From NCBI GenBank assembly GCA_947494325.1, contig CANLUS010000003.1:124001-188000 (forward strand): DNA of 64,000 bases, in the 5' to 3' direction. The stretch comes from an uncultured Flavobacteriaceae bacterium. GTDB taxonomy: Bacteria > Bacteroidota > Bacteroidia > Flavobacteriales > Flavobacteriaceae. The translations under genes and the position numbers were made by a program. The notes beneath the pieces were generated by a model. That model worked only from the letters and a program-made list of their open reading frames with translations, was not told where the DNA came from and did no database searches. How positions within the stretch are numbered: the first letter of the stretch is position 1; each line of letters starts with the position of its first letter. Shown in pieces: positions 44,847 to 64,000 of the stretch.

Positions 44847-44922
44847 AAAGTTTAGTTGTTGAATCGTTAAATTTGTTTAGCAAGTTTAGCGATTTAACAG
44901 TTTACATATCAACAATAATAGA

Positions 44923-45596: not shown

Positions 45597-46634
45597 TTAT
45601 TTACTGTAGTGTTTTTCTGGTAATTTCCTCAATTTTTCGGCGGCTTGTTCTGCCGTAATATCCCGTTGCGGATTGGCAAACATTTCATAACCAACCATGA
45701 ATTTTTTTACAGTCGCTGATCGCAATAGTGGTGGGTAAAAAGACATATGAAAGTGCCAGGCAGGATGTGCTGTTTCATCGGTAGGACTCTGATGAATTCC
45801 AGAAGAATATGGGAACGATGTTTCGAACAGATTGTCGTATTTAACGGTAAGTTTTTTTAGTATTTCCGCGAAAGCACTTTTTTCAACACTTTTTAATCCA
45901 GTTATGTTTTTAATATGCCTTTTAGGTGCAATCATTGCTTCATACGGCCAAACAGCCCAATATGGAACCAGAGCAACGAAATAGTCATTTTCTATGATGA
46001 TACGCTCGTTTATAATTATTTCTTGACGAATATAATCGCCTAAAAGACTTCTATTCGTTTTTGCCCAGTACTCTTGTTGTTTAGTGCTCTTTTTTTGAAC
46101 TTCCTGTGGGATCGTACTTTGCGCCCATATTTGTCCGTGAGGATGTGGATTACTGCACCCCATAATGTCACCTTTATTCTCAAATATCTGAACATGATTT
46201 ATAGTGGGTAAGCTACCGAGTTCAACGTATTCTTTTTGCCATAATGAAATAACATCAACAATGGCTTCAGCTTCCATTAATGGAAGCGTTAAAGAATGAT
46301 TAGGTGAAAAACAAATTACTTTACAAATACCAATTTCAGAAGTTGCTTTTAACAAACCATTATCGATTTTTGAAGAAAGAGTATCAGGCATCAAAGCCGC
46401 AAAATCATTTTCGAAAGCATAGGTCTTTTTATAGGCAGGGGTTTGTATGCCGTTAGCACGTGTGTTTCCAGGGCATAGGTAGCAATTTGGATCATGAGAT
46501 GGTAGAACAGCATTGGTCACTTTTTCTGTTTTACCTTGCCACGGACGTTTAGTTCTATGCGGTGAAACTAAAACCCATTCACCCGTTAAAATATTATAAC
46601 GTCTATGGGGATTATCATTAAAATATTCCATCAT
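45597..46634 (-). CDS. galT: galactose-1-phosphate uridylyltransferase
   Basis: A 345-residue HIT-superfamily enzyme that swaps galactose 1-phosphate and UDP-glucose to glucose 1-phosphate and UDP-galactose (Leloir pathway). The active-site triad HPH is at 164-166 (SNPHPHGQIW), with His166 the nucleophile, and the zinc-ligand pair CYLC at 51-54 is present. It begins exactly where galK ends, so the two are translationally linked. No UDP-galactose 4-epimerase gene is in this window. Confidence 0.94.
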   Translation of the reverse strand: MMEYFNDNPHRRYNILTGEWVLVSPHRTKRPWQGKTEKVTNAVLPSHDPNCYLCPGNTRANGIQTPAYKKTYAFENDFAALMPDTLSSKIDNGLLKATSEIGICKVICFSPNHSLTLPLMEAEAIVDVISLWQKEYVELGSLPTINHVQIFENKGDIMGCSNPHPHGQIWAQSTIPQEVQKKSTKQQEYWAKTNRSLLGDYIRQEIIINERIIIENDYFVALVPYWAVWPYEAMIAPKRHIKNITGLKSVEKSAFAEILKKLTVKYDNLFETSFPYSSGIHQSPTDETAHPAWHFHMSFYPPLLRSATVKKFMVGYEMFANPQRDITAEQAAEKLRKLPEKHYSK

Positions 46635-47810
46635 TTAATATGTTTGAAAAGAAGTTCCATTACTAGGTTTCACCAGTATAGGGCTTAATTCTATGTTGAA
46701 ATTTTCTTTATACGCTCTTGAAACATCTTGAACATATGTTGTGATTACATCCTTATGAATTAGATTTATTGTACAACCTCCAAAGCCACCGCCCATCATT
46801 CTAGATCCTAAAACAGTATCATAACGCTTCGAAAAATCAACCAAAAAGTCTAGTTCATTACAGCTAACGTTATATTCATTTCGTAAACCCTTATGCGAAG
46901 CATACATTAATTCGCCAAAGGCCGATAGTCTTCCCGTCTTTAATGCATCAGCTGCTGCAAGTACTCTTTGGTTTTCATGAAGAACATACGAACATCTTTG
47001 ATAAACTATTGAACTCATTTCGTCCTTAAATTCATTTAAAATGGATAGGTTGGCACTTCTTAAAGAGTCAATTTCTGAATATTTCGACTGTATGATTTGT
47101 ACCCCAATTTCGCATTCTTTTCTTCTAGTATTATATTCACTAGTAGACAAACTATGAGATACATTTGTGTTGAGTAATAAGAGTTCATAAGGGTCTATTT
47201 GTAAAGGTACGAGTTGGTAATTCAACGTTTTACAATCTAAAAGAAGGGCATGATTTGCCTCACTCATGACAGAGGCAAACTGATCCATAATTCCACATTT
47301 GGTACCAACAAATGAATGCTCTGCATCTCTAGACAACTCAATAAGACAGCGCTTAGATAATTGCAAATCGAAGAGTTTGTTTAGTGCAAAGGCCAGACCG
47401 CATTCTAAGGCAGCAGACGAACTGATACCAGCTCCAATAGGTAATTTACTTTCAATAATACAATCGAAGCCTTTAATTTTTGAGGTATGCTTTTGTAATT
47501 CATACACAACTCCAAGAATATAATTCTCCCATTCTGTATCGCTTTTTTTTACAGAGGTTAAGAACACTTGTAAGAAAGAATCATATGTCTTACTGTAAAT
47601 ATTACAAACGTTGTCCTCTCCATTTTTCTTTAAGTGAAAATATATATTTTTATCAATAGCGGTAGGTAGAACGTATCCAGCGTTGTAATCGGTATGTTCA
47701 CCTATTAAATTTACTCTTCCCGGTGATTTGACACTAATTTCAGGTTTAAAATTTGCAACAAGTTGTTCATTCCGAGTGGATAATTTTATGATAGATGTTT
47801 TGAAATCCAA
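46635..47810 (-). CDS. galK: galactokinase
   Basis: A 391-residue GHMP kinase that phosphorylates alpha-D-galactose at C1. The galactokinase signature GRVNLIGEHTDYNAG is near 31-45, the ATP loop LPIGAGISSSAALECG near 126, and the third GHMP motif MGGGFGGCTINL near the C-terminus. It is first in a galK-galT operon with a candidate -7 box and palindromic operator about 85-110 bp upstream. Divergent from the Nudix-type regulator gene. Confidence 0.95.
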   Translation of the reverse strand: MDFKTSIIKLSTRNEQLVANFKPEISVKSPGRVNLIGEHTDYNAGYVLPTAIDKNIYFHLKKNGEDNVCNIYSKTYDSFLQVFLTSVKKSDTEWENYILGVVYELQKHTSKIKGFDCIIESKLPIGAGISSSAALECGLAFALNKLFDLQLSKRCLIELSRDAEHSFVGTKCGIMDQFASVMSEANHALLLDCKTLNYQLVPLQIDPYELLLLNTNVSHSLSTSEYNTRRKECEIGVQIIQSKYSEIDSLRSANLSILNEFKDEMSSIVYQRCSYVLHENQRVLAAADALKTGRLSAFGELMYASHKGLRNEYNVSCNELDFLVDFSKRYDTVLGSRMMGGGFGGCTINLIHKDVITTYVQDVSRAYKENFNIELSPILVKPSNGTSFQTY

Positions 47811-47893
47811 TAGCTATTTTATATTAAAATGTTAACTTTAGCGTCCATTAAGAAAAAGTAGAAAGACGTCGTTATTCTCGATGAAATTGTTGT

Positions 47894-47901
47894 CAAATAT
47901 A
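47894..47901 (-). promoter_or_regulatory. candidate -7 box of galK-galT
   Basis: On the - strand the octamer is TATATTTG, matching TAnnTTTG, 84 bp upstream of galK. No TTG at 19 bp spacing was seen; instead the palindrome at 47905-47921 occupies the spacer. Confidence 0.5.
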
Positions 47902-47904
47902 ATA

Positions 47905-47921
47905 AATGTATTTTATACATT
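47905..47921. promoter_or_regulatory. palindromic operator in the galK/Nudix regulator interval
   Basis: AATGTAT, TTT, ATACATT form a perfect 7-bp inverted repeat. The core ATGTAW-TTT-WTACAT recurs upstream of the galactoside SusC (49869-49883), so both are candidate sites of the Nudix-type regulator encoded next door. Its place between the -7 box and the expected -33 of galK suggests repression. Confidence 0.6.
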
Positions 47922-47977
47922 AATTATATTTTAAATAAAATTACGAATAGTAAGATGTCTACACTAAAACCGAATAT

Positions 47978-48673
47978 ATGACTACAGATTGGGAAAAAGA
48001 TTGGTATAAGGAGCATGATAAAATGTATGTCGCTACCGACTGTATCATTTTTGGATTTGATAAAGGAATTCTAAAGCTATTAGTTTTTAAAAGGCGGGTT
48101 GCTCCTCAAAAGGGCGCATATTCTTTAATAGGAAGTTTTGTGCAACTTAAAGAAAGTGTTACCGAAGCTGCCAAACGTGTATTAACTGAAATTACCGGTT
48201 TAGAAAATGTCTTTATGGAGGAACTAAGAACGTATAATCTTGCCGAAAGAGACCCAGGTTATCGTTGTATATCAGTAGCACAATATGCTCTAATTTCAAT
48301 AGATGCTCAAGATAAAGAATTGGTAGAGTCACATGGAGCAGAATGGCACGATATTAGACAGCTGCCAGCGTTAGTTCTAGACCACAATGATATGGTGAAT
48401 GACGCTTTAAAGCGGCTTAGAGAAAAGGCAAGTTATCAACCGGTAGGATTTGAACTATTGCCTGACAAGTTTACCATTCCGCAATTACAACAATTGTATG
48501 AAGCCATTTATCAGAAAGAAATTGATCCTCGTAATTTTAGAAAGAAAATAATGTCATTTGATATTCTAACAAGGTTAGATGAAAAGGATAAATCAACAAG
48601 TAAACGAGGAGCATATTTGTATAGTTTTAATTCTAGACAGAAGTTGAACTTTAATACTAAATTCAATATTTAA
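47978..48673 (+). CDS. Nudix-family transcriptional regulator (NrtR/AraR-like)
   Basis: A 231-residue protein: N-terminal Nudix domain (about 15-145) and C-terminal winged helix (about 155-225, FTIPQLQQLYEAIYQKEIDPRNFRKKI). The Nudix box is degenerate (GSFVQLKESVTEAAKRVLTE, missing the REuxEE glutamates), so it should bind a ligand without hydrolysing it. Such regulators control NAD or pentose use in other bacteria; AraR of Bacteroides is of this type. Divergent from galK, it is the probable galactose-responsive regulator of this locus. The ligand is inference. Confidence 0.87.
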   Translation: MTTDWEKDWYKEHDKMYVATDCIIFGFDKGILKLLVFKRRVAPQKGAYSLIGSFVQLKESVTEAAKRVLTEITGLENVFMEELRTYNLAERDPGYRCISVAQYALISIDAQDKELVESHGAEWHDIRQLPALVLDHNDMVNDALKRLREKASYQPVGFELLPDKFTIPQLQQLYEAIYQKEIDPRNFRKKIMSFDILTRLDEKDKSTSKRGAYLYSFNSRQKLNFNTKFNI

Positions 48674-48746
48674 AATTCTCCAGTTTCTAGGTTTTTATCT
48701 ATTTTTCACTAATTTGCGTTCACCAAAATAGATCAACTCCCAGGTT

Positions 48747-49757
48747 TTGCTAATAGAAAAAATAAAAGAACTTACCCAATATAATTCGCTTTCTAAGCAT
48801 GAGCAATTAGTCAATGGAGTTCTAGAATCCATAGATGAGGGTTTTTTGAAAACCGGAGATAAATTACCTTCCATTAATGTAATGGTAGAAGAGTTAGGGT
48901 TCGCCCGAAAGACGATAGTTAGGGCTTATGAAGCATTAAAAGAAAGAGGACTCGTAGAGTCTAAAAAGTTGAAAGGATATTATATTGTAAGTCAAGAAAC
49001 AAAAGTGACCATGAAGGTTGCTTTACTTCTTTTTGCTTTTCAAAGTTTCCAGAAAGAGTTTTACAATACCTTTAGAAAAGAATTGGGTAAACGATTTCAA
49101 ATTGATGTCTATTTTCATCATAACAATGTTGCAATTTTTGAGACAATTGTGACTAATATTCGAGGTAAGTATGGTAAGTATGTCATTGCACCTGTTCAAA
49201 ATCAGAAAGTAATACCCTTGTTGAAAAGAATTGCTCCTCAAAAACTGCTAATTATCGATAGGTATATTAAAATGCCTCCAGCTTATTCTTTTATCTCTCA
49301 AGAGTTTGAAAAAAAAACCTACGAGAAATTGGTCGAATTGTTACCAGAAATAAGTCGATACAAAAAGTTCATTTTGTTCTTTAGAGACGACGCCGATTAT
49401 CCAGTCGGAATACTCCATGCTTTTCAAAAATTTATTGATAATCATAATATTAATGGCGTTGTTGAGAAAAAATATAAAAAAGGAATGTTAAAAAAGAAGC
49501 ATTCTTATTTTTTTATTAGCGATACTTTCTTGTGGGAGTTTTTAAAAGACTGTCGAAATGCCGAATACAAAGTGGGTAAAGATGTCGGGATATTGTCTCA
49601 CAATGACAATGTCGTTAAAGAATTTATTTTTGGAGGAATCACAACTATCTCCATTGATTTTAAAGAAATGGCAATGACTGCTGCACTTCATATTAAAGAG
49701 GGGAGTACTATCCAACTCATTGTTCCTTCCAATTTGATTAAGCGAAATTCTATTTAA
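48747..49757 (+). CDS. GntR-family regulator with LacI-type effector domain
   Basis: A 336-residue regulator starting at TTG 48747. An N-terminal winged helix (about 15-80, LKTGDKLPSINVMVEELGFARKTIVRAYEALKERGLV) is followed by a periplasmic-binding-protein-like domain (about 90-330) such as LacI proteins use to sense sugars, ending VGILSHNDNVVKEFIFGGITTIS. It lies upstream of the second SusC/SusD pair on the same strand and may control it, perhaps together with the Nudix-type regulator. The effector is unknown. Confidence 0.83.
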   Translation: MLIEKIKELTQYNSLSKHEQLVNGVLESIDEGFLKTGDKLPSINVMVEELGFARKTIVRAYEALKERGLVESKKLKGYYIVSQETKVTMKVALLLFAFQSFQKEFYNTFRKELGKRFQIDVYFHHNNVAIFETIVTNIRGKYGKYVIAPVQNQKVIPLLKRIAPQKLLIIDRYIKMPPAYSFISQEFEKKTYEKLVELLPEISRYKKFILFFRDDADYPVGILHAFQKFIDNHNINGVVEKKYKKGMLKKKHSYFFISDTFLWEFLKDCRNAEYKVGKDVGILSHNDNVVKEFIFGGITTISIDFKEMAMTAALHIKEGSTIQLIVPSNLIKRNSI

Positions 49758-49868
49758 TCCTTCAGTTGCTGTTTTGAATTTGATGGTTCTCGACGTCAAT
49801 CGTTGTACGTTTTCAAACCCAACAAAATGAAGGAAATGTATTTTTTTGACTACAATTTTATTTAATAT

Positions 49869-49883
49869 ATGTAATTTTTACAT
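49869..49883. promoter_or_regulatory. palindromic operator upstream of galactoside SusC
   Basis: ATGTAA, TTT, TTACAT form a perfect inverted repeat with the same TTT centre as the site at 47905-47921. It ends 7 bp before the -33 TTG of the SusC promoter, a position typical for an activator. Confidence 0.55.
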
Positions 49884-49890
49884 TTATTTT

Positions 49891-49920: not shown

Positions 49921-50009
49921 TTTAGTAGCATAGTGTATCATAGCATACATTTTAGGCTTTTTTAAACTAACACTAACTATTTAAAACAATCAACTTAATT
50001 ATTTATCTT

Positions 50010-53000
50010 ATGTTAAAAAAAGTATGTAAACAACTAATCGTTTTTGCATTAATACTGGCGAGTCACAGTGTTGTTGCACAAACGGTGACCGTTTCTGGTA
50101 CGGTATCAGAAGCGAGTGGCCCTTTACCGGGGGTAAATGTGGTTGTAAAAGGAACTGATAACGGTACAAGTACCGATTTTGATGGTAATTATACCCTGAA
50201 CAATGTAGATGCTAATGCAACGTTAGTGTTCAGTTTTGTGGGCTATATTACAAAGGAAGTACCCCTAAATGGTCAGACAACTTTAAACGTTATCCTAGAT
50301 AGTGATTCGCAAGCGTTAGATGAGGTTGTAGTTGTAGGGTATGGTTCACAAAATAAGCGTGATATCACCGGGGCAGTATCGTCCATAAAAGGAGCAGCAA
50401 TAAAACAAGTTGTTGCAAGTAATCCCACAATTGCATTACAGGGAAAAATTACGGGGGTACAAGTAGAAAGTTTTGGAGGGCAACCTGGAGGTCCAGCGAA
50501 CGTATTTATTAGAGGGATTAGCTCACTTACGAATTCATTTCCTTTATATATCGTTGATGGAATGATTGTAAATGATTTGTATTATTTGAATTCGAAAGAT
50601 TTTAAAAATATTCAAGTATTAAAAGATGCCGCTTCTGCCGCGATCTATGGTTCGAGAGCAGCAAATGGTGTAGTAATTGTTACAACCGATAGAGGTACAA
50701 CAGATACGTCACCAAAAGTGACCTTAGATATTAGAGCTGGTGTAGATACGCCGAGTAAAACCCTAGATTATTTGAACGGACCGCAGTTCGAACAGTATAG
50801 AAATCAATTAGAACAAAACGATGGTACAGGCTTCGTGTTTCCTAACACAGGAGTGAGTACTGATTGGCAAGACCTCTCTTTAAATAATGGGGCTATCGAA
50901 GATTATGGATTTTCAGTTTCTGGCGGTGGAGAAAGTTCTTCTTATTTATTTTCATCAAATTACTTTAAACAAGATGGAATATTAGTCGGATCTGGCTTTG
51001 AGAAATTTAATATACGCTTAAATAGTAAATTTAATATTGGTAAAGTGAAAATAGAAGAATCTTTATCATTAGCACAAACTAAATTGCAAACAAATGATTG
51101 GTTTGGTTTTGAAGGTTCTACAGCGCCCATATTAAGGTTTAATGTACCCGAAAATGAAGGTGGTTTTGAGGCCCCTGAATTTAGTGTTCATAATTTTGGA
51201 GGTATCAATAAATATGCTTTGGCCACATTAGAGGATAACTTATTAACTTCTCGAAATGTTTTAGGTAGTTTGAGCGCGAGTTATGAAATTATAGAAGGCC
51301 TGACCGGGAAGGTTAATGTTGGAATTGATTATGTGAATCAATACTATTCATTATTTCGACCTACTTATTTTATGAGTAATTCTGATGCGCTAAATAATTT
51401 AAACGAGTTAAACGATCTCACAGAAACACGTTCTGAAACCATCTCAACCATTATGGATGGAACCTTAACGTATAAAAAATCTTTTGGTAAGAATAACATT
51501 CAAGCTTTAATAGGTGTTTCAAGACAAGATATTGATGGTAATGCATTATCGACGACAGTTAATGGATTGCCTTCGAATGATATAAGAAATGTGGGAGCGG
51601 CTGATGCTTCAAACGTAGTTGCTACAGGTGGACAGCGTACGATAAGTGGATTATTATCTTATTTCGGAAATATTAATTATAAATATGATGATAAATATTT
51701 ACTAACAGCGTCTATCCGTCGTGACGCATCTTCTAAATTTAGAGATGGAAATCGTGTGGGATATTTCCCATCATTGTCCGTAGGTTGGAGAGTAAGTAAT
51801 GAAGATTTTTGGAATGAAGATGGGGTAGTGAATACACTTAAAATAAGAGCTGGATATGGTGAACTAGGGTCTCAGAATATTTCCGATTATGCATATCAAT
51901 CAGTATTCGGACTAACCTCTAATACTGCCTTTGGTGAACAACAAGATTTCGCCTTCGGATATGCCTTAACACAATTAGTAGATGAAGACATTAAATGGGA
52001 AGTTTCTAAAACGCTGAATGTTGGTATCGATGCTACCTTGCTAAACAATAAGTTATCATTGACTGCCGACTATTTTAACAAAGATGTAGAAGATGTATTG
52101 GTAGCGGTAAGTATTCCTTCTTCGAGCGGTACTAGTTTACCAGTTATCCAAAATGCAGGTAACATAAATAATAGAGGATTTGAGCTAGGTTTGAATTATA
52201 CCGATTCTCCGAGCGAAAACTTTAATTATAGTATAGGGTTGAATTTGGCAACAGTTAAGAATGAATTAACATCGTTACCAAATCCTATTATTGGCCCAGG
52301 AGTAGATGAGGATGGTAGAACAGTGAATCGCTTTATCGAAGGACAGCCTCTCGGAGTATTTTTCGGATACACTATCTTAGGAGTCTATCCCGATCAGGCA
52401 TCTATAGATAATGATCCAAATACAGTGAATGATCCTGTAAGAAGATCTTTAGTACAACCAGGAGATTTTCAAAGAGCCGATATTAATGGAGATGGCATGG
52501 TAACGGTAGATGACCAGTCGGTTATTGGAGATCCAACACCAGACTTTACGTATGGTATTAACTTCGCCGGAAATTATAAGAACTTAGATTTCAGCTTATT
52601 TTTCCAAGGGGTTCAAGGGAATGAAATTTGGAATCAGAATAAGTTTTTTAATACTTTTTGGTCTGACGACAATAAGTTAGTGGATGTGCTAAGAGCTTGG
52701 ACTCCAACAAATACAATAACTGATGTGCCTAGAGCAACTACGAGTGATGCAGGTGGTAATAGAGCAGCATCGACTTATTTCGTAGAAGATGGTTCTTATT
52801 TAAGATTAAAAACTGTTGAGATTGGTTATACTTTTAATGAAAAATTAGCTGTTGATTGGATTGGTTCAGCTCGAGTATATTTAAATGCTCAGAACCTCTT
52901 CGTTATAACAGATTATTCAGGTTATGATCCTGATGTAGCTTCTACATCTGGTGGACGTTCGCCTCGCGGCTTAAATCCAATATTGGGTCGTGGTATAGAT

Positions 53001-53057
53001 GCAAGGGCATATCCTAATGCCAGAACATTTACTGTAGGATTACAATTGGGCTTTTAA
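50010..53057 (+). CDS. SusC-like TonB-dependent receptor, galactoside locus
   Basis: A 1015-residue outer-membrane importer. Signal peptide (ends SVVAQ), regulatory-like beta domain (about 26-100, VSGTVSEASGPLPGVNVVV), EVVVVGYGSQNKRD at the TonB-box region, plug (about 110-235) and barrel ending FTVGLQLGF. The substrate is not set by sequence; the surrounding genes point to an alpha-galactoside. Only moderately similar to the alginate SusC, mostly in the conserved plug. SusD follows after 14 bp. Confidence 0.95.
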   Translation: MLKKVCKQLIVFALILASHSVVAQTVTVSGTVSEASGPLPGVNVVVKGTDNGTSTDFDGNYTLNNVDANATLVFSFVGYITKEVPLNGQTTLNVILDSDSQALDEVVVVGYGSQNKRDITGAVSSIKGAAIKQVVASNPTIALQGKITGVQVESFGGQPGGPANVFIRGISSLTNSFPLYIVDGMIVNDLYYLNSKDFKNIQVLKDAASAAIYGSRAANGVVIVTTDRGTTDTSPKVTLDIRAGVDTPSKTLDYLNGPQFEQYRNQLEQNDGTGFVFPNTGVSTDWQDLSLNNGAIEDYGFSVSGGGESSSYLFSSNYFKQDGILVGSGFEKFNIRLNSKFNIGKVKIEESLSLAQTKLQTNDWFGFEGSTAPILRFNVPENEGGFEAPEFSVHNFGGINKYALATLEDNLLTSRNVLGSLSASYEIIEGLTGKVNVGIDYVNQYYSLFRPTYFMSNSDALNNLNELNDLTETRSETISTIMDGTLTYKKSFGKNNIQALIGVSRQDIDGNALSTTVNGLPSNDIRNVGAADASNVVATGGQRTISGLLSYFGNINYKYDDKYLLTASIRRDASSKFRDGNRVGYFPSLSVGWRVSNEDFWNEDGVVNTLKIRAGYGELGSQNISDYAYQSVFGLTSNTAFGEQQDFAFGYALTQLVDEDIKWEVSKTLNVGIDATLLNNKLSLTADYFNKDVEDVLVAVSIPSSSGTSLPVIQNAGNINNRGFELGLNYTDSPSENFNYSIGLNLATVKNELTSLPNPIIGPGVDEDGRTVNRFIEGQPLGVFFGYTILGVYPDQASIDNDPNTVNDPVRRSLVQPGDFQRADINGDGMVTVDDQSVIGDPTPDFTYGINFAGNYKNLDFSLFFQGVQGNEIWNQNKFFNTFWSDDNKLVDVLRAWTPTNTITDVPRATTSDAGGNRAASTYFVEDGSYLRLKTVEIGYTFNEKLAVDWIGSARVYLNAQNLFVITDYSGYDPDVASTSGGRSPRGLNPILGRGIDARAYPNARTFTVGLQLGF

Positions 53058-53071
53058 TAAAAATTAATTTA

Positions 53072-54637: not shown

Positions 54638-54675
54638 TTTGAGTTAACTTTGTTTTCATATGTTTAAATTAGGAG

Positions 54676-54707
54676 CCAAGTAGTCGTAAAAGACTACTTG
54701 GTTTTTT
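54676..54707 (+). terminator. terminator between SusD and the VCBS lipoprotein gene
   Basis: A perfect 10-bp stem (CCAAGTAGTC and GACTACTTGG, loop GTAAAA) followed by six T residues. It should reduce transcription of the downstream catabolic genes relative to SusC/SusD, an arrangement often seen after SusD genes. Confidence 0.9.
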
Positions 54708-54727
54708 CAATTTCTTTTGATCAGATA

Positions 54728-57700
54728 ATGTCAAAACTATGTACCCTATATATTTTGTGTATTCTTTTGTTTGCTTCTTGTGCTAAGAAGCAAAATACAC
54801 TTTTTAAATATGTCGATTCAAAACATTCGGGAATTACCTTTTCTAACACTATTATCGAAAACGATTCTATTAATGTAATAGAATTTCAATATTCTTATAA
54901 TGGTGGAGGTGTAGGAATTGGTGATTTTAATAATGATGGATTACAAGACATGGTGTTTACCGGTAATCAAGTTTCGTCAAAAATTTATCTAAACAAAGGA
55001 GATTTAACATTTGAAGACATTAGTGAAAAGTCAAACTTTGAAACAAATGTATGGGTCACGGGAGTTTCGGTAGTAGATATAAATAATGACCAACTCGAAG
55101 ATATTTACTTAAGTGTTGGTGGATTCAACTGCAATAATAATAATTGTAACAATTTACTTTTTATAAATAAAGGAGTGAATGGCAAAGGTATTCCTCAGTT
55201 TGAAGAAAGTGCTGCTGCCTATAATTTAGATGATGGCTTATACGCTCAGCAAACACTTTTTTTTGACTATGATCTTGACGGAGATCTAGACGCATATATC
55301 GTTCATAATGGAGAAAGTACACGATCTAAGAATGCATTAATTCCAAAAAAATATCAACCGAATCATATTCAAGACGTTTTGTTGAGAAATGATGTTGTTG
55401 AAGGTGTTAATCACCCCAAATTTACAGACGTGTCTATAGATCTAGGCATTACACATCGTGGGTTTGGATTAGGTATCGCGTTAAACGATTTTAACCGTGA
55501 TGGTTTGCCAGATTTATATATTTCTAATGATTTTATTACGGATGATCTTTTGTATATAAATCAAGGCATAGACACTATATTAAAGACGCATAATGGGTTT
55601 AAAGAAATGAGTCAGCAATGGATGCCGCATCAATCTTTTAATGCGATGGGGGTCGACGTTGCCGATATAAACAACGATGCCCTACCCGATGTACTGGTGT
55701 TAGATATGCTTCCTCAAGATTATACACGCCAAAAATCAATGTTAGGAACTACAAATTATGATAAATACTTGTTATCACAAAGAAACAACTATGCCTCACA
55801 ATATATCCGAAATACACTTCAATTGAATAATGGTTTTATTGATTCGCAACCTCTAAAGACAAGTGAAGTAGGTTATATGTCTGGCATTGCTAGTACTGAT
55901 TGGAGTTGGGCTCCTTTGATAGCCGATTTTGATAATGATGGAAACAAAGATATTTATATAACAAATGGATATGTAAAAGATATCACAGATTTAGATTTTG
56001 TAAGTTATTCAAACAATAATAGCATTTTTGGTACCGATGAGACACGTAAAGCATCAGTGAAGAAAAATCTTCAAAAAGTAAGCGGTGTTAAGTTGAGCAA
56101 TTTCTTTTACAAAAATACCGAGCGTTCCTATTTTGAAGATGTATCGGATAGTTGGATATCAGAAAAAAAATCATTTTCAAATGGAGCTGTCTTCGCAGAT
56201 TTAGATAATGATGGTGATTTAGATATTGTTGTAAATAATATTAACGATGAAGCATCGATTATCGAAAATCAAACAGAGCGTGTTAAAAGAGCGAACTATG
56301 TAAGAATTCAACTAAAAGGAGGGCAACAAAACAGCAGGGCTATTGGTGCTAAAGTCACACTTTGGGAAGGTGGTCGACAGCAGCAGCAATATCAATCGGT
56401 CGTAAGGGGTTATTTATCATCTGTAGAACCTATTTTGCATTTCGGACTGGAATCTGATCGAATAGATTCTTTGGAAGTTAGTTGGCCTAACACTAGTGTA
56501 TCCAAGCTTTATAATGTTGAGGTAAATCAACATCTAATTGTTGATAGTAAATTGATAGAGCGTTTAGAAAGAAGTGACATTATTTTACCTACGAAAATAT
56601 TCAATGTAGATACTACAACCATAGCATTAACACACCAAGAGAATGGTGGTCATGATTATGTATTTCAGCATTTGTTAATGCGTCAGTACAACAGATTTGG
56701 ACCCTGTGTTACTGCGGCAAATGTAGATGGAGAGCCTGGTGATGAACTATTTTTTGGAGGAAGTAAAGATGCGCCTGCGTTAATTTTAAGTCAAGATGAA
56801 GAAGGGGTGTATAAGGTCATGCAAAAGTTAGAAAGTGCTCCCGAAAATACTGACGCTGTTTTTGTCGATATCGATAATGATAATGATTTAGATCTTTATA
56901 TAGCGAACGGAGGCACAGAATTCAAATTGGGTTCGTCTATTTATCAAGATCAACTCTATTTAAACGATGGTACTGGTAGATTCACTATAGCCGCAGATGC
57001 TCTTCCAAAAGTATTCGAAACGACTGCTTGTATCAAACCTAACGATTTTGACAAAGATGGAGACATTGATTTTTTCGTTGGCAGTAGAATAGTAAAAGGC
57101 AAATACCCAACGGCTCCAAATAGTCAATTATTACGAAATAATTCTGGTAGGTTTGAAGCACTTGAAAATGACCAATTACTAAGATCAGGTATGATTACTG
57201 ATGCTCTTTGGAAAGATATTGATGGTGATGATTGGGATGATCTCATCATAGTTGGTGAATGGATGCCTATCACGATTTTTAAGAACAATAGAGGTAAATT
57301 AGAAAAAATGGATGCTCGTTGGATGAATGAAAGTAACGAGGATATAAAAGTTTCAGGTTGGTGGAATTCAATTGAGGCGGGAGATTTTGACAATGATGGA
57401 GATATTGATTTTATTGTAGGTAATCAAGGATTGAATGGTTTTGTTTTACCAAAAGAAGGGAAACCAGTATATATTTATAACAAAGATTTTGATAACAACG
57501 GAAGTATAGACCCGGTTCTTGCTCAATATTTTAAGACTAAAAACGGTTATGAGTTATTGCCTGTGCATACACGTGATGATATTATGAAACAATTGGTAAA
57601 ATTGAAAGATACCTATGTGACATATGCGTCTTTTTCCAAGGCAAATTTTAAAAATTTATTAAAAATTACAGACTTAGAGAAGAGTACATTAAGGGCCGAT

Positions 57701-58075
57701 ACATTTGCAAGCAGCTACATAGAAAATATTGGAAATGGTACCTTTAAAGTTGTTGCATTACCCGACGAATGTCAAGTTGCTCCAATTAATGATATGCTAG
57801 TGAAAGATATTAATAATGATGGGTTTCTGGATGTATTGTTAGTTGGTAATGATTTTACTGCAGAAACAAACTATGGAAAATATGATGCGCTTATGGGTAT
57901 TTATTTAAAGGGAAGTGATCAAGGTTTTAAGGCGATAACGAGCAAAAAATCTGGATTTTACGCACCTGGTCAATCACATCATATAATTGAAATAAGAACC
58001 CGAAATAACAATAATAAAGTGCTTGTAAGCCAAAATAATGATAAGGTAATGATGTTTAGCATCAATAAAAATTAA
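54728..58075 (+). CDS. VCBS/FG-GAP repeat lipoprotein with ASPIC/UnbV domain
   Basis: A protein of 1115 residues from the ATG at 54728, which gives a proper lipobox (LFASC); an upstream start at 54698 falls inside the preceding terminator. At least ten calcium-binding FG-GAP type repeats with D-x-N/D-x-D-G-x-x-D are visible (DFNNDGLQDMVF, DYDLDGDLDAYI, DFDNDGNKDIYI, DLDNDGDLDIVV, DFDNDGDIDFIV). An ASPIC/UnbV segment lies near residues 530-620 (IGAKVTLWEGGRQQQQYQSVVRGYLS). It probably forms a double seven-bladed propeller on the cell surface. Such CRTAC1-like proteins occur in flavobacterial sugar loci with unclear role; binding or isomerising the sugar are possibilities. Confidence 0.88.
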   Translation: MSKLCTLYILCILLFASCAKKQNTLFKYVDSKHSGITFSNTIIENDSINVIEFQYSYNGGGVGIGDFNNDGLQDMVFTGNQVSSKIYLNKGDLTFEDISEKSNFETNVWVTGVSVVDINNDQLEDIYLSVGGFNCNNNNCNNLLFINKGVNGKGIPQFEESAAAYNLDDGLYAQQTLFFDYDLDGDLDAYIVHNGESTRSKNALIPKKYQPNHIQDVLLRNDVVEGVNHPKFTDVSIDLGITHRGFGLGIALNDFNRDGLPDLYISNDFITDDLLYINQGIDTILKTHNGFKEMSQQWMPHQSFNAMGVDVADINNDALPDVLVLDMLPQDYTRQKSMLGTTNYDKYLLSQRNNYASQYIRNTLQLNNGFIDSQPLKTSEVGYMSGIASTDWSWAPLIADFDNDGNKDIYITNGYVKDITDLDFVSYSNNNSIFGTDETRKASVKKNLQKVSGVKLSNFFYKNTERSYFEDVSDSWISEKKSFSNGAVFADLDNDGDLDIVVNNINDEASIIENQTERVKRANYVRIQLKGGQQNSRAIGAKVTLWEGGRQQQQYQSVVRGYLSSVEPILHFGLESDRIDSLEVSWPNTSVSKLYNVEVNQHLIVDSKLIERLERSDIILPTKIFNVDTTTIALTHQENGGHDYVFQHLLMRQYNRFGPCVTAANVDGEPGDELFFGGSKDAPALILSQDEEGVYKVMQKLESAPENTDAVFVDIDNDNDLDLYIANGGTEFKLGSSIYQDQLYLNDGTGRFTIAADALPKVFETTACIKPNDFDKDGDIDFFVGSRIVKGKYPTAPNSQLLRNNSGRFEALENDQLLRSGMITDALWKDIDGDDWDDLIIVGEWMPITIFKNNRGKLEKMDARWMNESNEDIKVSGWWNSIEAGDFDNDGDIDFIVGNQGLNGFVLPKEGKPVYIYNKDFDNNGSIDPVLAQYFKTKNGYELLPVHTRDDIMKQLVKLKDTYVTYASFSKANFKNLLKITDLEKSTLRADTFASSYIENIGNGTFKVVALPDECQVAPINDMLVKDINNDGFLDVLLVGNDFTAETNYGKYDALMGIYLKGSDQGFKAITSKKSGFYAPGQSHHIIEIRTRNNNNKVLVSQNNDKVMMFSINKN

Positions 58076-58076
58076 G

Positions 58077-59846
58077 ATGATGATAGATACTAAAATAGTA
58101 CAGCAGTTGAATGAAATATTAATTACAGGCGTACCTGCCAAAATGGATGCTTCTTTAACAAAGATTCATGATGAAAATGAGATCAAAATTTACAATTTTA
58201 AGTTAACTGCAAATGAATATATAGATGTGGAACCTATTACTTTGCAATGGAAAATTCCTGCACATAATGTCAAAGGTGTTTGGAAGCCAACAAGTGATTT
58301 TTCTAAACGGATTCAGGCCGATTGGGAATTAGATCATATGGAGTCTAGAATTTCCATAGACGCACCTGTGATTTCACTTTTTGGTAATAATGACGAAAAC
58401 GTGTCGACCTTTGCTTGTTCGAATGCTATAAACAAACTAGAACTAAATGCTCGAATAAGAGAAGAAGATGATTCTTTTTACTGCCACATTACTTTTTTTA
58501 CTGAGAAAAATTCCAATATAAAAGAATACAATGTCCAACTAAGAATTGATACAGGAGAAAAACACTTCTCATCTGCTTTAAAAGAAACGGCACGGTGGTG
58601 GGAAAATTTTGCCAGTTTAAAACCTGCATATGTACCTAGTATTGCGAAAGCACCTTTGTATTCTACCTGGTATCAATTTCATCAAGAGCTAGACACCAAT
58701 GAGCTTATTAAAGAATGTAAAATTGCTAAGAAACTCGGATATGAATCTATTATTATTGATGATGGTTGGCAAACGAATGATTCGAATAGAGGGTATGATT
58801 ATACCGGTGATTGGATACCAGAAAGGCTAACAAATCCAAGAGAATTTGTGAGTTCAATTCATAGTGTAGGTATGAAAGTAGGCTTTTGGTATGCTGTGCC
58901 TTTTTGCGGAAAAGAATCAAAAGCCTATCAAAGATTTAAGGGTAAATTTTTAACAGAAAATCATCGCTGGGCACCAGTTTTTGATCCGAGATTTCCTGAA
59001 GTACGCACGTACCTCATAACAATTTATAAAAGAGCCTTATTAGAATGGAATTTAGACGGTTTTAAATTAGATTTTATAGATGATTTTAAACTGTATCCAG
59101 ACACTATTGTTTCTGGAGCCGATGGCAGAGATTATGTCTCTATCAACGAAGCTGTAGATCGCTTAATGACCGATATAATTGATTCACTACGTGCGATAAA
59201 TTCAGAAGTTTTTATTGAATTTAGACAAAAGTACACAGGCCCTGCAATGCGAAAATATGGTAATATGTTTCGGGCGTTCGATTGCCCGGGGGATGCTACT
59301 ATGAATAGAGTTCGAATTGCCGATATTAATATGTTAGCCGGTACTACGGCAGTGCATTCAGATATGATAACTTGGCATAAAAATGAGAAATTAGAAGTTG
59401 CCGCTTTACAAATGGTAAATACTTTATTCGGAGTACCTCAAATTTCAGTGAAACTAAAAGATCTGTCGAAAGATCATTTAGAAATGGTGTCCTTTTACAC
59501 TTCATATTGGACTAAAAATAAAGATATTTTATTAGAAGGTGAATTCATTCCAAGTAAACCTTTGGCAAATTACCCTATCCAGCAAGTCTCTAAAAATGAT
59601 AGTCTTATAGTTGGTTTGTATGATGAATATATAGTACATTTGGAACAAGCACATAAAAATATTGATATTTTAAATGCTCAATTAGCCACTAGTATGATTA
59701 TAAAAGTGGCTAAAAATATGGGCTTATATCAATGTAAAATATATGATTGTAAAGGCAATCTTACGAGCCAAAATGAATTGACCTTAAGTGGGTTAGTTGA
59801 AATTGAAGTGCCTGCTTGTGGAATTGTACAAATAACTCAAATTTAA
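58077..59846 (+). CDS. GH36-like alpha-galactosidase, cytoplasmic
   Basis: A 589-residue glycoside hydrolase of clan GH-D, closest to GH36. An N-terminal beta domain (about 1-190) precedes the TIM barrel (about 195-480) with STWYQF, IIIDDGWQTND and the nucleophile Asp in GFKLDFIDDF; the acid/base Asp is likely in FRAFDCPGDA. A C-terminal beta domain follows. There is no signal peptide or lipobox, so hydrolysis occurs in the cytoplasm after uptake of an intact galactoside. It starts 1 bp after the VCBS gene and precedes a symporter gene by 6 bp, so the three are co-transcribed. The alpha-galactoside of glycerol is a plausible substrate given the adjacent glycerol genes. Confidence 0.87.
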   Translation: MMIDTKIVQQLNEILITGVPAKMDASLTKIHDENEIKIYNFKLTANEYIDVEPITLQWKIPAHNVKGVWKPTSDFSKRIQADWELDHMESRISIDAPVISLFGNNDENVSTFACSNAINKLELNARIREEDDSFYCHITFFTEKNSNIKEYNVQLRIDTGEKHFSSALKETARWWENFASLKPAYVPSIAKAPLYSTWYQFHQELDTNELIKECKIAKKLGYESIIIDDGWQTNDSNRGYDYTGDWIPERLTNPREFVSSIHSVGMKVGFWYAVPFCGKESKAYQRFKGKFLTENHRWAPVFDPRFPEVRTYLITIYKRALLEWNLDGFKLDFIDDFKLYPDTIVSGADGRDYVSINEAVDRLMTDIIDSLRAINSEVFIEFRQKYTGPAMRKYGNMFRAFDCPGDATMNRVRIADINMLAGTTAVHSDMITWHKNEKLEVAALQMVNTLFGVPQISVKLKDLSKDHLEMVSFYTSYWTKNKDILLEGEFIPSKPLANYPIQQVSKNDSLIVGLYDEYIVHLEQAHKNIDILNAQLATSMIIKVAKNMGLYQCKIYDCKGNLTSQNELTLSGLVEIEVPACGIVQITQI

Positions 59847-59852
59847 CAATTT

Positions 59853-61508
59853 ATGGATTCAGTATCTATCATTTCATTCGTCGGTTTCACCTTATTAGTA
59901 GGTTTTGTAGCGTGGTATAAAACTAGAGGAACCGATGAAAGTACAGCTGATGGTTATTACCTTGGCGGAAGAAGTCTCGGCGCAATAACTATTGCAGGTT
60001 CTCTCTTACTTACGAATCTTTCAGCCGAGCAAATTGTCGGCTTGAATGGTCAATCTTTTACAGAAGGTGTATTGGTAATGGCGTGGGAAACCTTGGCGGC
60101 AATCGCAATGGTATTGACGGCAATTCTATTATTACCAAAATATATGCGTTCTGGAATTACAACAATACCAGAATTTATTCAAGGTAGATTTGATGCACAA
60201 ACAAAGACGATACTTTCTATTTTATTTTTAACAGCATTTGGGATAGTATTATTGCCTACGATTCTTTATTCTGGTTCCTTGGCTTTTAGTACGATGTTTG
60301 ATTTACCAACTTTGTTAGGTATGTCTGAATCAGCCGTTATTTGGTTATGTGTTTGGAGTATCGGCGCAATAGGTATCGTATACGCCATTTTTGGTGGTTT
60401 AAAAGCAGTAGCAGTTTCTGATTTAATCAATGCAATTGGTCTTTTAATAGGAGGATTATTGATTCCGATTTTTGGTTTGATGATGATCGGCGATGGAAGT
60501 ATAAGTGATGGATTAAGTACACTTTGGAATAATAACCCCGAAAAATTCAATGTAAAAGGTGATGTGACATCTTCAATTCCGTTTGGAACTATTTTTACAG
60601 GAATGATGATCGCCCAGATGTATTATTGGGGTACCAACCAATCAATTTTACAACGTGTTTTTGGAGCTAAGAGTTTAAAAGAAGGACAAAAAGGAATGAT
60701 GTTGGCGGCTTTCGTTAAGTTTTTAATTCCCGTTATTGTGGTATTACCAGGTATTATTGCATGGCATTTATTTGATGGAGGTTTAGAAAATGCTGATCAG
60801 GCGTATCCAGCATTAGTGCGTAAGGTATTGAGACCAGAATTAACAGGTTTCTTTGCGGCAGTCTTATTCGGTGCTGTATTGAGTTCTTTTAATAGTTTAT
60901 TAAATAGTAGTGCAACCTTGTTTGGTTTTGATCTATATAAAGAGTATTTTAAGAAGAATGCTACTGAACAACAAACAGTAAAAGCGGGTAAAATGTTTGG
61001 TCTTTTCCTGGCAATTATATCCATGAGTATTGCACCGTTTATTGCAAACGCACCAGACGGATTATTCTCGTATATTCAACAAGCGTTGGGTAGCTTAAGT
61101 GTACCAATATTAGCCGTTGTTGTTGTGGGAATTCTTTCTAAAAGAGTACCAGCTATTGGAGCAAAAATAGCGTTAATTGGAGGTGTAATAATGTATTTAA
61201 TAAGTCTATTGATTTTAGGTCCGAATGCCATAGATAGTGCACTTGCCGAAGCGGCAGCAAATGGGATTACGGATCCTGAAGCATTGAACTTAATTAAGGC
61301 TGAAGCTTATCCTCATTTTTTACATATTATGGGTATTTTGTTTGTGATTAACGTGATTGTCATGTTAATTATTGGTCAATTATATCCTAAGAAAGAGGTC
61401 TATGTTCCTGTGGTAACGGAAGAAATAGACACAACGCCTTGGAAATATGCTAAGATTATTGGAATAATTATTACACTATTAGTATTAAGCACCTATTTTA
61501 TTTTTTAA
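59853..61508 (+). CDS. sodium:solute symporter (SSS family)
   Basis: A 551-residue inner-membrane symporter with about 14 helices. The N-terminal YYLGGRSLGAITIAGSLLLTNLSAEQ and the following GLNGQSF match SSS transporters of the sodium/galactose type (SglT, SLC5). Serines in NSLLNSSATLFGFDLY fit the sodium site of helix 8. Adjacent to a cytoplasmic alpha-galactosidase, it probably imports the intact galactoside with Na+. The GlpK-GlpD gene follows after 24 bp. Confidence 0.92.
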   Translation: MDSVSIISFVGFTLLVGFVAWYKTRGTDESTADGYYLGGRSLGAITIAGSLLLTNLSAEQIVGLNGQSFTEGVLVMAWETLAAIAMVLTAILLLPKYMRSGITTIPEFIQGRFDAQTKTILSILFLTAFGIVLLPTILYSGSLAFSTMFDLPTLLGMSESAVIWLCVWSIGAIGIVYAIFGGLKAVAVSDLINAIGLLIGGLLIPIFGLMMIGDGSISDGLSTLWNNNPEKFNVKGDVTSSIPFGTIFTGMMIAQMYYWGTNQSILQRVFGAKSLKEGQKGMMLAAFVKFLIPVIVVLPGIIAWHLFDGGLENADQAYPALVRKVLRPELTGFFAAVLFGAVLSSFNSLLNSSATLFGFDLYKEYFKKNATEQQTVKAGKMFGLFLAIISMSIAPFIANAPDGLFSYIQQALGSLSVPILAVVVVGILSKRVPAIGAKIALIGGVIMYLISLLILGPNAIDSALAEAAANGITDPEALNLIKAEAYPHFLHIMGILFVINVIVMLIIGQLYPKKEVYVPVVTEEIDTTPWKYAKIIGIIITLLVLSTYFIF

Positions 61509-61532
61509 TCACATAAAGCCTTAGTATCATAC

Positions 61533-64000
61533 ATGAAGCAAAAATATGTCATTGCCTTTGATCAGGGTACTACGAGTACAAGAGCTATCCTATTCAATTT
61601 AAAAGGTGAAATTGTGGCTGTGTCTCAAAAAGAATTAACACAGCATTATCCCAAATCTGGATGGGTTGAACATGATGCAAATGAGATTTTCAATGATCAA
61701 AAAGAGGCATTTGAAAATGTGATGAAGAAGGCAAAGATTACGGCCAATGATGTGGCGGCTATTGGAATCACAAATCAACGCGAAACGACCGTTGTTTGGG
61801 ATAAGGAAACTGGTGAACCCATCCATAAAGCTATTGTTTGGTTAGATAAGCGAACGACCGAAATTTGTGATAATTTAAGAGCTCAAGACTTAGAGAGCTA
61901 TGTGCGTGAACATACAGGCTTGGTGATTGATTCTTATTTTTCTGGCACCAAGCTTAAATGGATTTTAGACAATGTTGAAGGAGCACGAGGGAAAGCACAA
62001 AAAGGTCAATTATTGTTTGGGACAATTGACAGTTGGTTGATTTATAAATTCACAAATGGCAAAAAACATGTAACCGATCATACCAATGCATCTCGTACTA
62101 TGTTGTATAACATCAAAGATTTATGTTGGGATGACAAGATGTTAAAAGCGATGGACATTCCCAAAACTATGATGCCTCAAGTACAAAGTTCATCTTCTGA
62201 TTTTGGATTCGTATCTTATAAAGATGAACAAATTCCTATTTATGGTGTTGCTGGTGATCAACAAGCATCTTTGTTTGGTCAAGGTGGTCATAAAGCAGGA
62301 ATGGCCAAAAATACCTATGGCACGGGTTGTTTTTTATTACTAAATACTGGCAAAAAACAAGTTGTCTCTAAAAACGGCCTTTTAACCACTTTGACATGTA
62401 GTTTAGAGAATGAAAAAATAAAATATGCACTTGAGGGTAGTGTTTTTGTTGGTGGAGCTTCGATACAATGGTTGCGAGACCAGATGCAATTGATTAGCAA
62501 AGCATCCGAGACCGAAGCTATTTGTAATGAGATCCCGCCTTTAAAAGATCTATACGTAGTACCAGCTTTTGCAGGATTGGGTGCGCCGTACTGGGATGCA
62601 AATGCGAAGGGTGCTATTTATGGATTAACCTTAGATAGCGGAAAGAAACATCTCATAAAGGCAACTGTAGAAGCGTTGGCTTATCAAACGAGAGATGTAC
62701 TAGATGCAATGATTGAAGATAGTGGTAAACAAATGATTACCTTAAAAGTTGATGGAGGTGCTTCTGCCAATAATTACCTCATGCAGTTTCAATCTGATAT
62801 TCTGAATGTAGCCGTTGATAGACCAAAGATGTTAGAGGTAACAGCATTAGGGGCAGCATTATTAGCCGGGATAAAAGCCGGAGTTTGGACTAAAGATGAC
62901 ATCGATACTGTGCGAGAAGTGGATACGATTTTCGAACCAGAAATGGATCGAAAAATACGCAGGCAAAAGTATAAAGGATGGTTAAAGGCCATCGAAAGAA
63001 CCAAAACATCTGTGGCTAAGAAAAAAGATCGTGCCTTGCGTTTTTCAATTCTCGATCGTGAAAAACAACTTAAAAAATTAGCCGCTACGAAATTTGATCT
63101 GATTATCATTGGTGGAGGCGTAACTGGTGCAGGCATTGCTTTGGATGCCGCATCAAGAGGCCTAAAAACATGCTTAGTAGAAAAGAATGATTTTGCTTCT
63201 GGCACTAGTAATAAATCGACAAAACTGATTCATGGTGGGTTGCGTTACCTAAAACAAATGGAGATTGGTTTGGTAAAAGAGTCTGGTACTGAAAGAGCTA
63301 TTGTGCATAAATTAGCACCGCATCTGGTAGTACCAGAGAAAATGTTATTGCCTTTGATAGAAGGTGGGAACTATGGTAAAATGTTAACATCTATAGGTCT
63401 AAAAGTATATGACATTCTTGCAAATGTGGAGGGTGACGATAGGAGAAAAATGCTTGATACTAAAGAAACAATTCTCAAAGAACCATTGCTTGATGAAGCT
63501 TCTTTATTAGGCGGTGGATACTACGCAGAATATCGTACTGACGATGCTCGTTTAACCATAGAGCTCTTGAAAAAGGCCACAGAATTAGGCGCAACAATTA
63601 TCAATTATTGTGAAATGGAGGAGTTCGTTTATAACAATGAACGAAAAATACAAAGTGTTAATTGTGTTGATCATAATACAGGAGTTAAAGTCAATATAAC
63701 GGCTAGAAACGTAGTTTCTGCAGCTGGACCATGGGTAGATTTGCTACGTACAAAAGATGCTTCAATGAATAATAAACGTTTGCATCTTACAAAAGGAGTT
63801 CATATTGTTTTTCCAGCAGAAAAATTACCCATAAAACAATCTGTTTATTTTGATGTTGATGATGGGCGTATGATTTTTGCAATCCCAAGAGGAAGAGTTA
63901 CTTATGTGGGTACGACTGATACAAATTATACAGGAAATCTTGATAGAGTAGTAGCTACAAAAGATGATGTAAATTATTTATTAGATGCTGTGAACAAGAC
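61533..64000 (+). CDS. glycerol kinase-glycerol-3-phosphate dehydrogenase fusion (cut by window end)
   Basis: A single frame runs from the ATG at 61533 to the window edge without a stop (822 codons visible). Residues 1 to about 496 are a complete FGGY glycerol kinase: FDQGTTSTRAIL at the start, GVAGDQQASLFGQ, GTGCFLLLNTG and the normal C-terminal RRQKYKGWLKAIERT. After a short basic linker (SVAKKKDRA), GlpD begins near residue 502 with RFSILDREKQLKKL, then the FAD motif IIGGGVTGAG, FASGTSNKSTKLIHGG and AGPWVD. About 320 of some 520 GlpD residues lie inside the window. A TTG at 63036 sits where a separate GlpD would start, so internal initiation is also possible. Together the halves take glycerol to dihydroxyacetone phosphate. 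Confidence 0.92.
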   Translation, partial: MKQKYVIAFDQGTTSTRAILFNLKGEIVAVSQKELTQHYPKSGWVEHDANEIFNDQKEAFENVMKKAKITANDVAAIGITNQRETTVVWDKETGEPIHKAIVWLDKRTTEICDNLRAQDLESYVREHTGLVIDSYFSGTKLKWILDNVEGARGKAQKGQLLFGTIDSWLIYKFTNGKKHVTDHTNASRTMLYNIKDLCWDDKMLKAMDIPKTMMPQVQSSSSDFGFVSYKDEQIPIYGVAGDQQASLFGQGGHKAGMAKNTYGTGCFLLLNTGKKQVVSKNGLLTTLTCSLENEKIKYALEGSVFVGGASIQWLRDQMQLISKASETEAICNEIPPLKDLYVVPAFAGLGAPYWDANAKGAIYGLTLDSGKKHLIKATVEALAYQTRDVLDAMIEDSGKQMITLKVDGGASANNYLMQFQSDILNVAVDRPKMLEVTALGAALLAGIKAGVWTKDDIDTVREVDTIFEPEMDRKIRRQKYKGWLKAIERTKTSVAKKKDRALRFSILDREKQLKKLAATKFDLIIIGGGVTGAGIALDAASRGLKTCLVEKNDFASGTSNKSTKLIHGGLRYLKQMEIGLVKESGTERAIVHKLAPHLVVPEKMLLPLIEGGNYGKMLTSIGLKVYDILANVEGDDRRKMLDTKETILKEPLLDEASLLGGGYYAEYRTDDARLTIELLKKATELGATIINYCEMEEFVYNNERKIQSVNCVDHNTGVKVNITARNVVSAAGPWVDLLRTKDASMNNKRLHLTKGVHIVFPAEKLPIKQSVYFDVDDGRMIFAIPRGRVTYVGTTDTNYTGNLDRVVATKDDVNYLLDAVNK

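Follow-up and report, generated by a model that had tools for sequence, protein, structure and literature searches.

A candidate locus for uptake and cleavage of alpha-galactosylglycerol in an uncultured Flavobacteriaceae bacterium

Gene run and encoded proteins

We analysed a 64,000-nucleotide stretch of DNA (the window; positions 124,001 to 188,000, forward strand, of contig CANLUS010000003.1, GenBank assembly GCA_947494325.1) from an uncultured Flavobacteriaceae bacterium. At its 3′ end, genes for galactose and glycerol metabolism accompany a SusC/SusD pair, a divergent hydrolase and a sodium symporter. We consider it reasonably probable that this locus is a dedicated, inducible system for the uptake and cleavage of an alpha-galactosylglycerol, with floridoside (2-O) or isofloridoside (1-O) from red algae as the likeliest substrate. 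The features of the locus are as follows.

45597-46634, minus strand: galT, galactose-1-phosphate uridylyltransferase (NCBIfam NF008724, 516.9 bits, cut-off 448)
46635-47810, minus strand: galK, galactokinase (TIGR00131, 314.8 bits, cut-off 226.65; Pfam galactose-binding signature)
47903-47923, no strand: palindrome between galK and the Nudix gene, probable operator of the Nudix regulator (similar block in L047, L117 and L141)
47978-48673, plus strand: Nudix-type transcription regulator with NrtR winged-helix domain (Pfam PF21906, E 1.2e-27; AraR_C; NUDIX)
48747-49757, plus strand: GntR-type regulator with a periplasmic-binding-like C-terminal part (Pfam GntR, 38.2 bits; Peripla_BP_3 under its cut-off)
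49866-49886, no strand: second copy of the palindrome, in the susC promoter (sequence match to the galK/Nudix palindrome)
49921-49950, plus strand: conserved locus operator, GTAGCATAGTGTATCATAG (41.6 by the matrix, against 6.4 for the second-best position of the window)
50010-53057, plus strand: SusC, TonB-dependent outer-membrane transporter (TIGR04056, 834.8 bits)
53072-54637, plus strand: SusD, surface ligand-binding lipoprotein (Pfam SusD_RagB, E 5.3e-36)
54671-54706, plus strand: terminator-like hairpin 3′ of susD (15 pairs, five of them G-C; longest stem among those listed)
54698-58075, plus strand: FG-GAP repeat / ASPIC-UnbV ('VCBS') surface lipoprotein (Pfam FG-GAP_3, E 1.6e-54; UnbV_ASPIC, E 1.1e-19)
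58077-59846, plus strand: divergent clan GH-D (GH36-like) hydrolase (Melibiase at cut-off; fold model; invariant acids)
59853-61508, plus strand: sodium:solute symporter (SSF), relative of vSGLT (2xq2, E 1.7e-61)
61533-64000 and beyond the window end, plus strand: fused GlpK and GlpD-type dehydrogenase/oxidase, 1055 amino acids (family searches; frame read on the contig)

The nine proteins and the fused gene of this 18-kb region stand in the order given by the initial annotation, with galT and galK on the minus strand. Every gene of the run that it had described, from SusC/SusD through the FG-GAP, hydrolase and symporter genes to GlpK-GlpD, was found in place, and the gaps from the FG-GAP gene onward are 1, 6 and 24 bp. 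The two regulators that it had placed between the run and the opposite-strand galK-galT are the Nudix and GntR genes. On the contig, the next two listed genes after GlpK-GlpD are on the opposite strand. Like polysaccharide utilisation loci (PULs) of Bacteroidota, the locus combines adjacent SusC and SusD homologues, a regulator and a co-directional carbohydrate-active enzyme (the Melibiase-type hydrolase) in a single run. Unlike them, it has no surface-exported enzyme for cutting polysaccharides, as its one glycosidase lacks an export signal by hydrophobicity; instead, it encodes a cytoplasmic hydrolase, a symporter of the inner membrane and the enzymes through which each half of a small glycoside would enter metabolism. 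The genes of the Leloir pathway are all there: GalK and GalT are encoded in the window and GalE elsewhere in the genome (C1:419736-420734; TIGR01179, 404.1 bits against a cut-off of 262.3). The genome also has two MIP channels, both outside the locus, and one of them adjoins galE.

The initial label 'GH36-like' for the hydrolase agreed with the fold but was loose as a family assignment. The Melibiase match reached 27.1 bits against a Pfam cut-off of 27, the Pfam scan gave no match to Glyco_hydro_36N or 36C in the protein, and Melibiase_2 (PF16499) had no match in the genome. An AlphaFold2 model built from 57 relatives (mean pLDDT 91.7) was nearest to solved GH36 alpha-galactosidases and an alpha-galactosaminidase, then to GH31 enzymes including alpha-galactosidases, with about 11-15% identity in the structural matches. 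The Foldseek match to 6phw had an E value of 2.4e-28, and the GH-D fold was found together with the DDGW pair, D228-D229. This pair, D332 and D402 were invariant across 57 sequences, and D332 aligned to the KWD region of the L. brevis GH36 enzyme. It seems that D332 could be the nucleophile and D402 the acid/base; the profile alignment to canonical GH36 ended at residue 322, i.e. before both residues. Compared with the GH36 alpha-galactosidases of clan GH-D (AgaA, SpAga and the L. brevis enzyme), the hydrolase is thus alike in fold, DDGW motif and nucleophile region, and unlike in its domain matches and in its identity, which is 12-15% when the folds are aligned. Its fold, its invariant acids and the genes around it lead us to propose that it is a cytoplasmic alpha-galactosidase acting on galactosylglycerol.

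The cytoplasmic location, also proposed initially, was borne out by the lack of an N-terminal hydrophobic stretch: the Kyte-Doolittle peak was 1.17, against 2.45-2.82 for SusC, SusD and the FG-GAP lipoprotein. Export was called here from a hydrophobicity peak of at least 1.9 and not by a signal-peptide program. Hydrolase relatives with at least 51% identity had no such stretch (peak at most 1.75), and the Bacteroidota relatives with at most 48% identity in the same list all had one (peak at least 1.96); L071, at 49%, did not. In a tree of 98 rows longer than 500 amino acids (identical rows counted once; the partial L094 and L104, for which no frame was found, omitted), a symporter lay within 6.5 kb for 59 of the 74 rows classed as cytoplasmic and for 1 of the 24 classed as exported, and export state had to change three times. 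The cytoplasmic hydrolase thus keeps the symporter and the exported paralogues are mostly without it, which fits the import of an uncut glycoside. Exported paralogues adjoin sulfatases in L069, L073 and L074; the run of L069 contains two copies, one exported and one cytoplasmic, along with a symporter and GalK. Four neighbour genes were scanned for the Bacillota and Chloroflexota relatives and gave no clear clue to the substrate.

The symporter matched the SSF family at 185.3 bits (Pfam) and, with its site residues, can be placed in the SGLT type. Of the seven residues that we take to form the galactose site of the sodium/galactose symporter vSGLT, five are retained (Q69, E88, Y263, K294 and Q428) and two differ (S91 to A, N260 to Q). 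Its NCBIfam equivalog over cut-off was PRK10484, 'solute:sodium symporter family transporter'. We propose that this protein imports the intact glycoside. For the outer membrane, a precedent for a SusCD-type pair on a small solute is NanOU, which serves sialic acid (PMC3969230). The ligand of NanOU differs from that proposed here, and the NanU family match was weak (54.7 bits vs an NCBIfam cut-off of 425).

The GlpK-GlpD gene is a single 1055-amino-acid frame that ends at the window-equivalent position 64700. Its first half is a glycerol kinase by NF000756 (754.0 bits, NCBIfam cut-off 498). Its second half has DAO and DAO_C domains and stayed under the cut-offs of the glycerol-3-phosphate dehydrogenase and oxidase models (323.1 vs 360; 478.2 vs 840), so that it may be either a GlpD-type dehydrogenase or an oxidase. 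No second GlpK or GlpD was found in the genome, where the other matches were one of 27% identity over the kinase half and one of 60 residues. The fusion is not a mark of this locus: several flavobacterial lineages have it, some of them with no copy of the hydrolase (L117-L123), and among the linked pairs several consist of two separate genes. Among hydrolase-free loci, L117 has a symporter by GlpK-GlpD together with galK/galT and a Nudix regulator, and L122 has one together with galE and an aldose epimerase; in L119 and L123 GlpK-GlpD adjoins an aldose epimerase. Long frames of 43-46% identity in small genomes, each with a reported internal stop, may be further fusions. No published GlpK-GlpD fusion in flavobacteria turned up in the literature search, whose sole listed match concerned intranuclear Coxiellaceae.

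Several minor features were also surveyed. Terminator-like hairpins numbered 15 in the region against 10.0 expected, and the one at 54671-54706 might perhaps cause a step-down in expression between SusCD and the downstream enzymes. The true start of the FG-GAP gene is likely an in-frame ATG about 30 bases 3′ of the listed TTG. The Rfam scan of the window gave no match at gathering scores, and the sigma-70 promoter scan gave 74 hits, with 76.9 expected.

Gene company in related loci

The initial annotation had suggested looking for the same gene order in other marine flavobacteria, and we found the conserved run in six genera: Aquimarina, Tenacibaculum, Polaribacter, Maribacter, Cellulophaga and Dokdonia. 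The counts below refer to 59 relatives with at least 56% hydrolase identity, a sample drawn from the best 80 of 89. A symporter lay within 6.5 kb of the hydrolase in 54 of them (in L052, L053 and L059 it was a different SSF protein, with 31-34% identity), a GntR regulator orthologue within 12 kb in 46 and an orthologous SusC was present in 42. Genes glpK/glpD were found within 6.5 kb in 28 relatives. In 21, galK, galT or galE was present, 19 on the same strand and three on the other, one being counted in both. At least one of glp, gal and a LacA-like acetyltransferase gene accompanied the hydrolase in 49 relatives, and glp and gal together in 10. The acetyltransferase gene was within 1.5 kb in 12 relatives; in L031 (11688-12302) and 11 more loci a maltose/galactoside O-acetyltransferase-like gene, under NCBIfam cut-offs, lies just 3′ of the hydrolase. 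A canonical GH36 gene stood beside the hydrolase only once (L050). The arrangement also varies: galK and galT directly follow the symporter or hydrolase in some runs (L146, L152), galE ends the run in many Aquimarina, and GlpK-GlpD can sit between hydrolase and symporter. Some Aquimarina have a HAD-type phosphatase gene near the run end (L047:13597-14379, L049, L050, L065).

Among 299 sampled genomes of the family, 17 carried this hydrolase type (at least 57% identity). The glp genes were beside the hydrolase in seven of these carriers, and in the other 10 the listed glp genes were elsewhere. A tree was built from the 50 stretches that contain GlpK as well as GlpD (the dropped stretches include the unlinked genomes G120, G211, G215 and G086). 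Its 29 linked pairs fell into two lineages, one of four pairs from Maribacter and Cellulophaga and one of 25, across a branch with 100% support. The starred branches of this tree require at least six linkage changes. Therefore, the same type of glycerol module was joined to the locus on more than one occasion. This repeated joining, together with a run kept across genera, makes a chance neighbourhood unlikely, and we rejected that explanation.

Operators of the locus

The susC promoters have in common a 30-base element around GTAGCATAGNNTATCATAG. A matrix trained on 35 of 44 susC promoters found a site scoring at least 12 somewhere in the stretch of 56 of the 59 relatives, which partly include the training set. 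The site lies before susC, or before the hydrolase where the hydrolase stands apart (e.g. L031, L142 and L143). Judging from adjacency, the GntR protein probably binds this operator at 49921-49950.

We scanned the 17 carrier genomes for the operator in trans, with an 18-base core first and then with the full matrix. The operator was found 27-34 bases 5′ of an unlinked glpK match in G001 (24.4) and G236 (31.7), and 77 bases 5′ of an unlinked glpD in G086 (16.8). As a control, 19 glp stretches from genomes lacking this type of hydrolase were scanned; none contained the operator, and the top score over 707,004 positions was 1.9. In G211 a core with two mismatches lies 28 bases 5′ of glpD, though below the matrix threshold. 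Reversed-pattern controls indicated that the two-mismatch core alone is at background level in most genomes, and we therefore relied on the full matrix. The link of the operator to glp genes in trans is real in two lineages and perhaps not general. In G236 the operator (35.3; L196:8094) also precedes a TetR-type gene, followed on the same strand by GAPDH and galactose-1-epimerase family genes.

No GntR-type operator was found in the galK promoter of the window, which has the different palindrome listed above. As this palindrome is common to the galK and susC promoters, galKT would be tied to the operon in the window. It is probable that the Nudix regulator binds it. The susC-promoter copy was seen in the window and in L027, L029, L035, L060 and L141; in L141 both copies read CGTA...TACG instead of TGTA...TACA, and L035 carries the copy without a Nudix gene in the stretch read. 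The pattern occurred six times in 13.2 kb of susC promoters vs four times in 354 kb of control sequence, an enrichment that is partly circular because the pattern was defined after seeing the window.

Substrate, habitat and neighbouring region

The gene families and their arrangement suggest the following pathway. At the cell surface, the solute would be captured by SusD and SusC together with the FG-GAP lipoprotein and delivered into the periplasm. The vSGLT-like symporter, given its homology, site residues and cytoplasmic hydrolase partner, may co-transport the intact glycoside and sodium through the inner membrane. In the cytoplasm, cleavage by the clan GH-D hydrolase would then yield galactose and glycerol. 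By the established functions of these families, the fused GlpK-GlpD would convert glycerol to dihydroxyacetone phosphate, and GalK and GalT, with the GalE encoded elsewhere, would lead galactose into glycolysis. Two regulators would govern transcription, the GntR protein acting at the 49921-49950 operator and the Nudix regulator at the palindrome of the galK and susC promoters.

A single cytoplasmic cut that yields galactose and glycerol implies a galactosylglycerol, which we regard as the likely substrate. The initial annotation had argued for a substrate of these two halves; repeated gal and glp joining, the two glp lineages, the trans operator and the palindrome considerably strengthen that argument as far as an alpha-galactosylglycerol is concerned. 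Floridoside, which red algae use as their storage sugar, is the best candidate at present. One report calls galactosylglycerol (floridoside and isofloridoside) the chief product of photosynthetic assimilation in red algae, and also describes a GH36 alpha-galactosidase making isofloridoside from galactose and glycerol in vitro by reverse hydrolysis (PMC8509150). Such synthesis implies that galactosylglycerol chemistry is within the reach of the family. Glucosylglycerol was also considered as a substrate, and is disfavoured by the galK/galT/galE company and the GH36 fold.

Digalactosylglycerol (alpha-Gal-1,6-beta-Gal-glycerol), the deacylated headgroup of chloroplast galactolipids, would also give galactose and glycerol if the hydrolase took off the alpha-galactose and a beta-galactosidase encoded elsewhere finished the breakdown. 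Being larger, it would suit a SusC/SusD pair better, and galactolipids with such headgroups are known from all algae, which would fit the carriers with alginate lyases (below). The run, however, has neither a beta-galactosidase nor a lipase among its nine scanned proteins and the fused gene, and in the runs of relatives, whose neighbours were scanned in part, the one extra glycosidase identified was the canonical GH36 of L050. Floridoside or isofloridoside is the most economical substrate because only an alpha-galactosidase is needed, and we think the headgroup an unlikely, if serious, competitor. The initial preference for floridoside over galactolipid headgroups was thus supported by economy and by a modest association with GH86, and weakened by the alginate lyase data and by the genome itself, as follows.

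The locus carriers are marine, often seaweed-associated bacteria. GH86, a family of red-algal enzymes, was found in 5 of 17 carriers vs 12 of 282 other genomes (odds ratio 9.4, P = 0.0013). The odds ratio was 5.4 (P = 0.039) within genomes positive for PL7 (alginate lyases) and 7.7 (P = 0.16) within PL7-negative ones; since the genomes are related, all of these habitat P values are optimistic. Agarase_CBM, with matches in just two of the 299 genomes, could not serve as a test. Red-algal specificity of the locus is at best weakly supported. A literature search on macroalgal epiphytes gave no match.

A number of observations speak against a dedicated floridoside system. PL7 was enriched as well, in 9 of 17 carriers vs 62 of 282 others (odds ratio 4.0, P = 0.007). 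The bacterium's own genome has PL7 and gave no match to GH86 or Agarase_CBM, and a genome of the same genus, G119, has Agarase_CBM without the hydrolase. A SusC/SusD pair is unusual for a 254-Da solute. In 31 of the 59 relatives no glp gene lies beside the hydrolase, and in 10 none of glp, gal and LacA does. The symporter stands with GlpK-GlpD, and the hydrolase is missing, in four of the 19 control genomes (L117, L121, L122 and L127). As G001 and G236 belong to the same genus, the trans evidence amounts to two independent cases, and by matrix the operator was not found in the glp stretches of 7 of the 10 unlinked genomes (G026, G102, G120, G018, G050, G215 and G211), where the stretch read in G120, G211 and G215, as in G086, covers glpD only and not the glpK promoter. 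Among 13 Nudix-bearing loci with susC, eight lack the second palindrome and five have it. Finally, the operator (36.5) precedes the susC of an exported-paralogue locus without symporter in G032 (L154:52), a genome whose glp stretch is one of the 19 controls; the regulator is therefore not confined to this run.

Some of these points bear on two further explanations. The locus might be an ordinary alpha-galactoside system for melibiose, raffinose or galactan oligomers, with glp as a housekeeping gene at the operon end. The many relatives without linked glp agree with this, and since no second GlpK/GlpD was found, glycerol metabolism in general must depend on the fused gene too. Yet glpK-glpD came to the locus separately from two lineages, the same operator precedes unlinked glp genes in three genomes, and the glp gene lies inside one run, after a 24-bp gap, so we judge this explanation improbable. 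Melibiose and raffinose operons have a cytoplasmic alpha-galactosidase and a transporter and are not known to contain glycerol genes; the locus resembles them in its proposed cytoplasmic alpha-galactosidase and its transporter, and differs by the glycerol genes. The substrate could also be a related solute, e.g. a galactoside that has glycerol as its aglycone and is sulfated or longer, on which exported paralogues or sulfatases act first. The exported paralogues beside sulfatases in three loci, L069 with its two copies among them, and the G032 operator are in line with this idea, but the run of the window has neither a sulfatase nor an exported glycosidase, and we give it very little weight.

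Returning to floridoside, a wider claim falls somewhat short of even chances in our estimate: that this would be the first dedicated floridoside regulon of Bacteroidota, with intact import by SusCD and symporter, a new cytoplasmic GH-D hydrolase family specific for galactosylglycerol, and an operator of its own that recruits distant glycerol genes (in one genome the GAPDH/galactose-1-epimerase run) in trans. No published bacterial system for uptake and breakdown of floridoside or galactosylglycerol was among the matches listed, in a search with most subscription journals outside its coverage. If the reading is true, the use of SusC/SusD in seaweed bacteria extends beyond polysaccharides to competition for an algal solute that is small and abundant, and a hydrolase family at the edge of GH36 would have a testable function. 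The operator sequence allows a search for the pathway in other genomes.

The neighbouring part of the window, just before galT in window coordinates, is an alginate utilisation region (25649-45591) with a SusC/SusD pair of its own at 33047-37616. All four PL7 matches of the genome lie in the window, at 25649-40494, and the part with SusC/SusD and PL7 is followed by genes for a GntR/FCD regulator, an MFS transporter, an SDR, a PfkB kinase and a KDPG-type aldolase.

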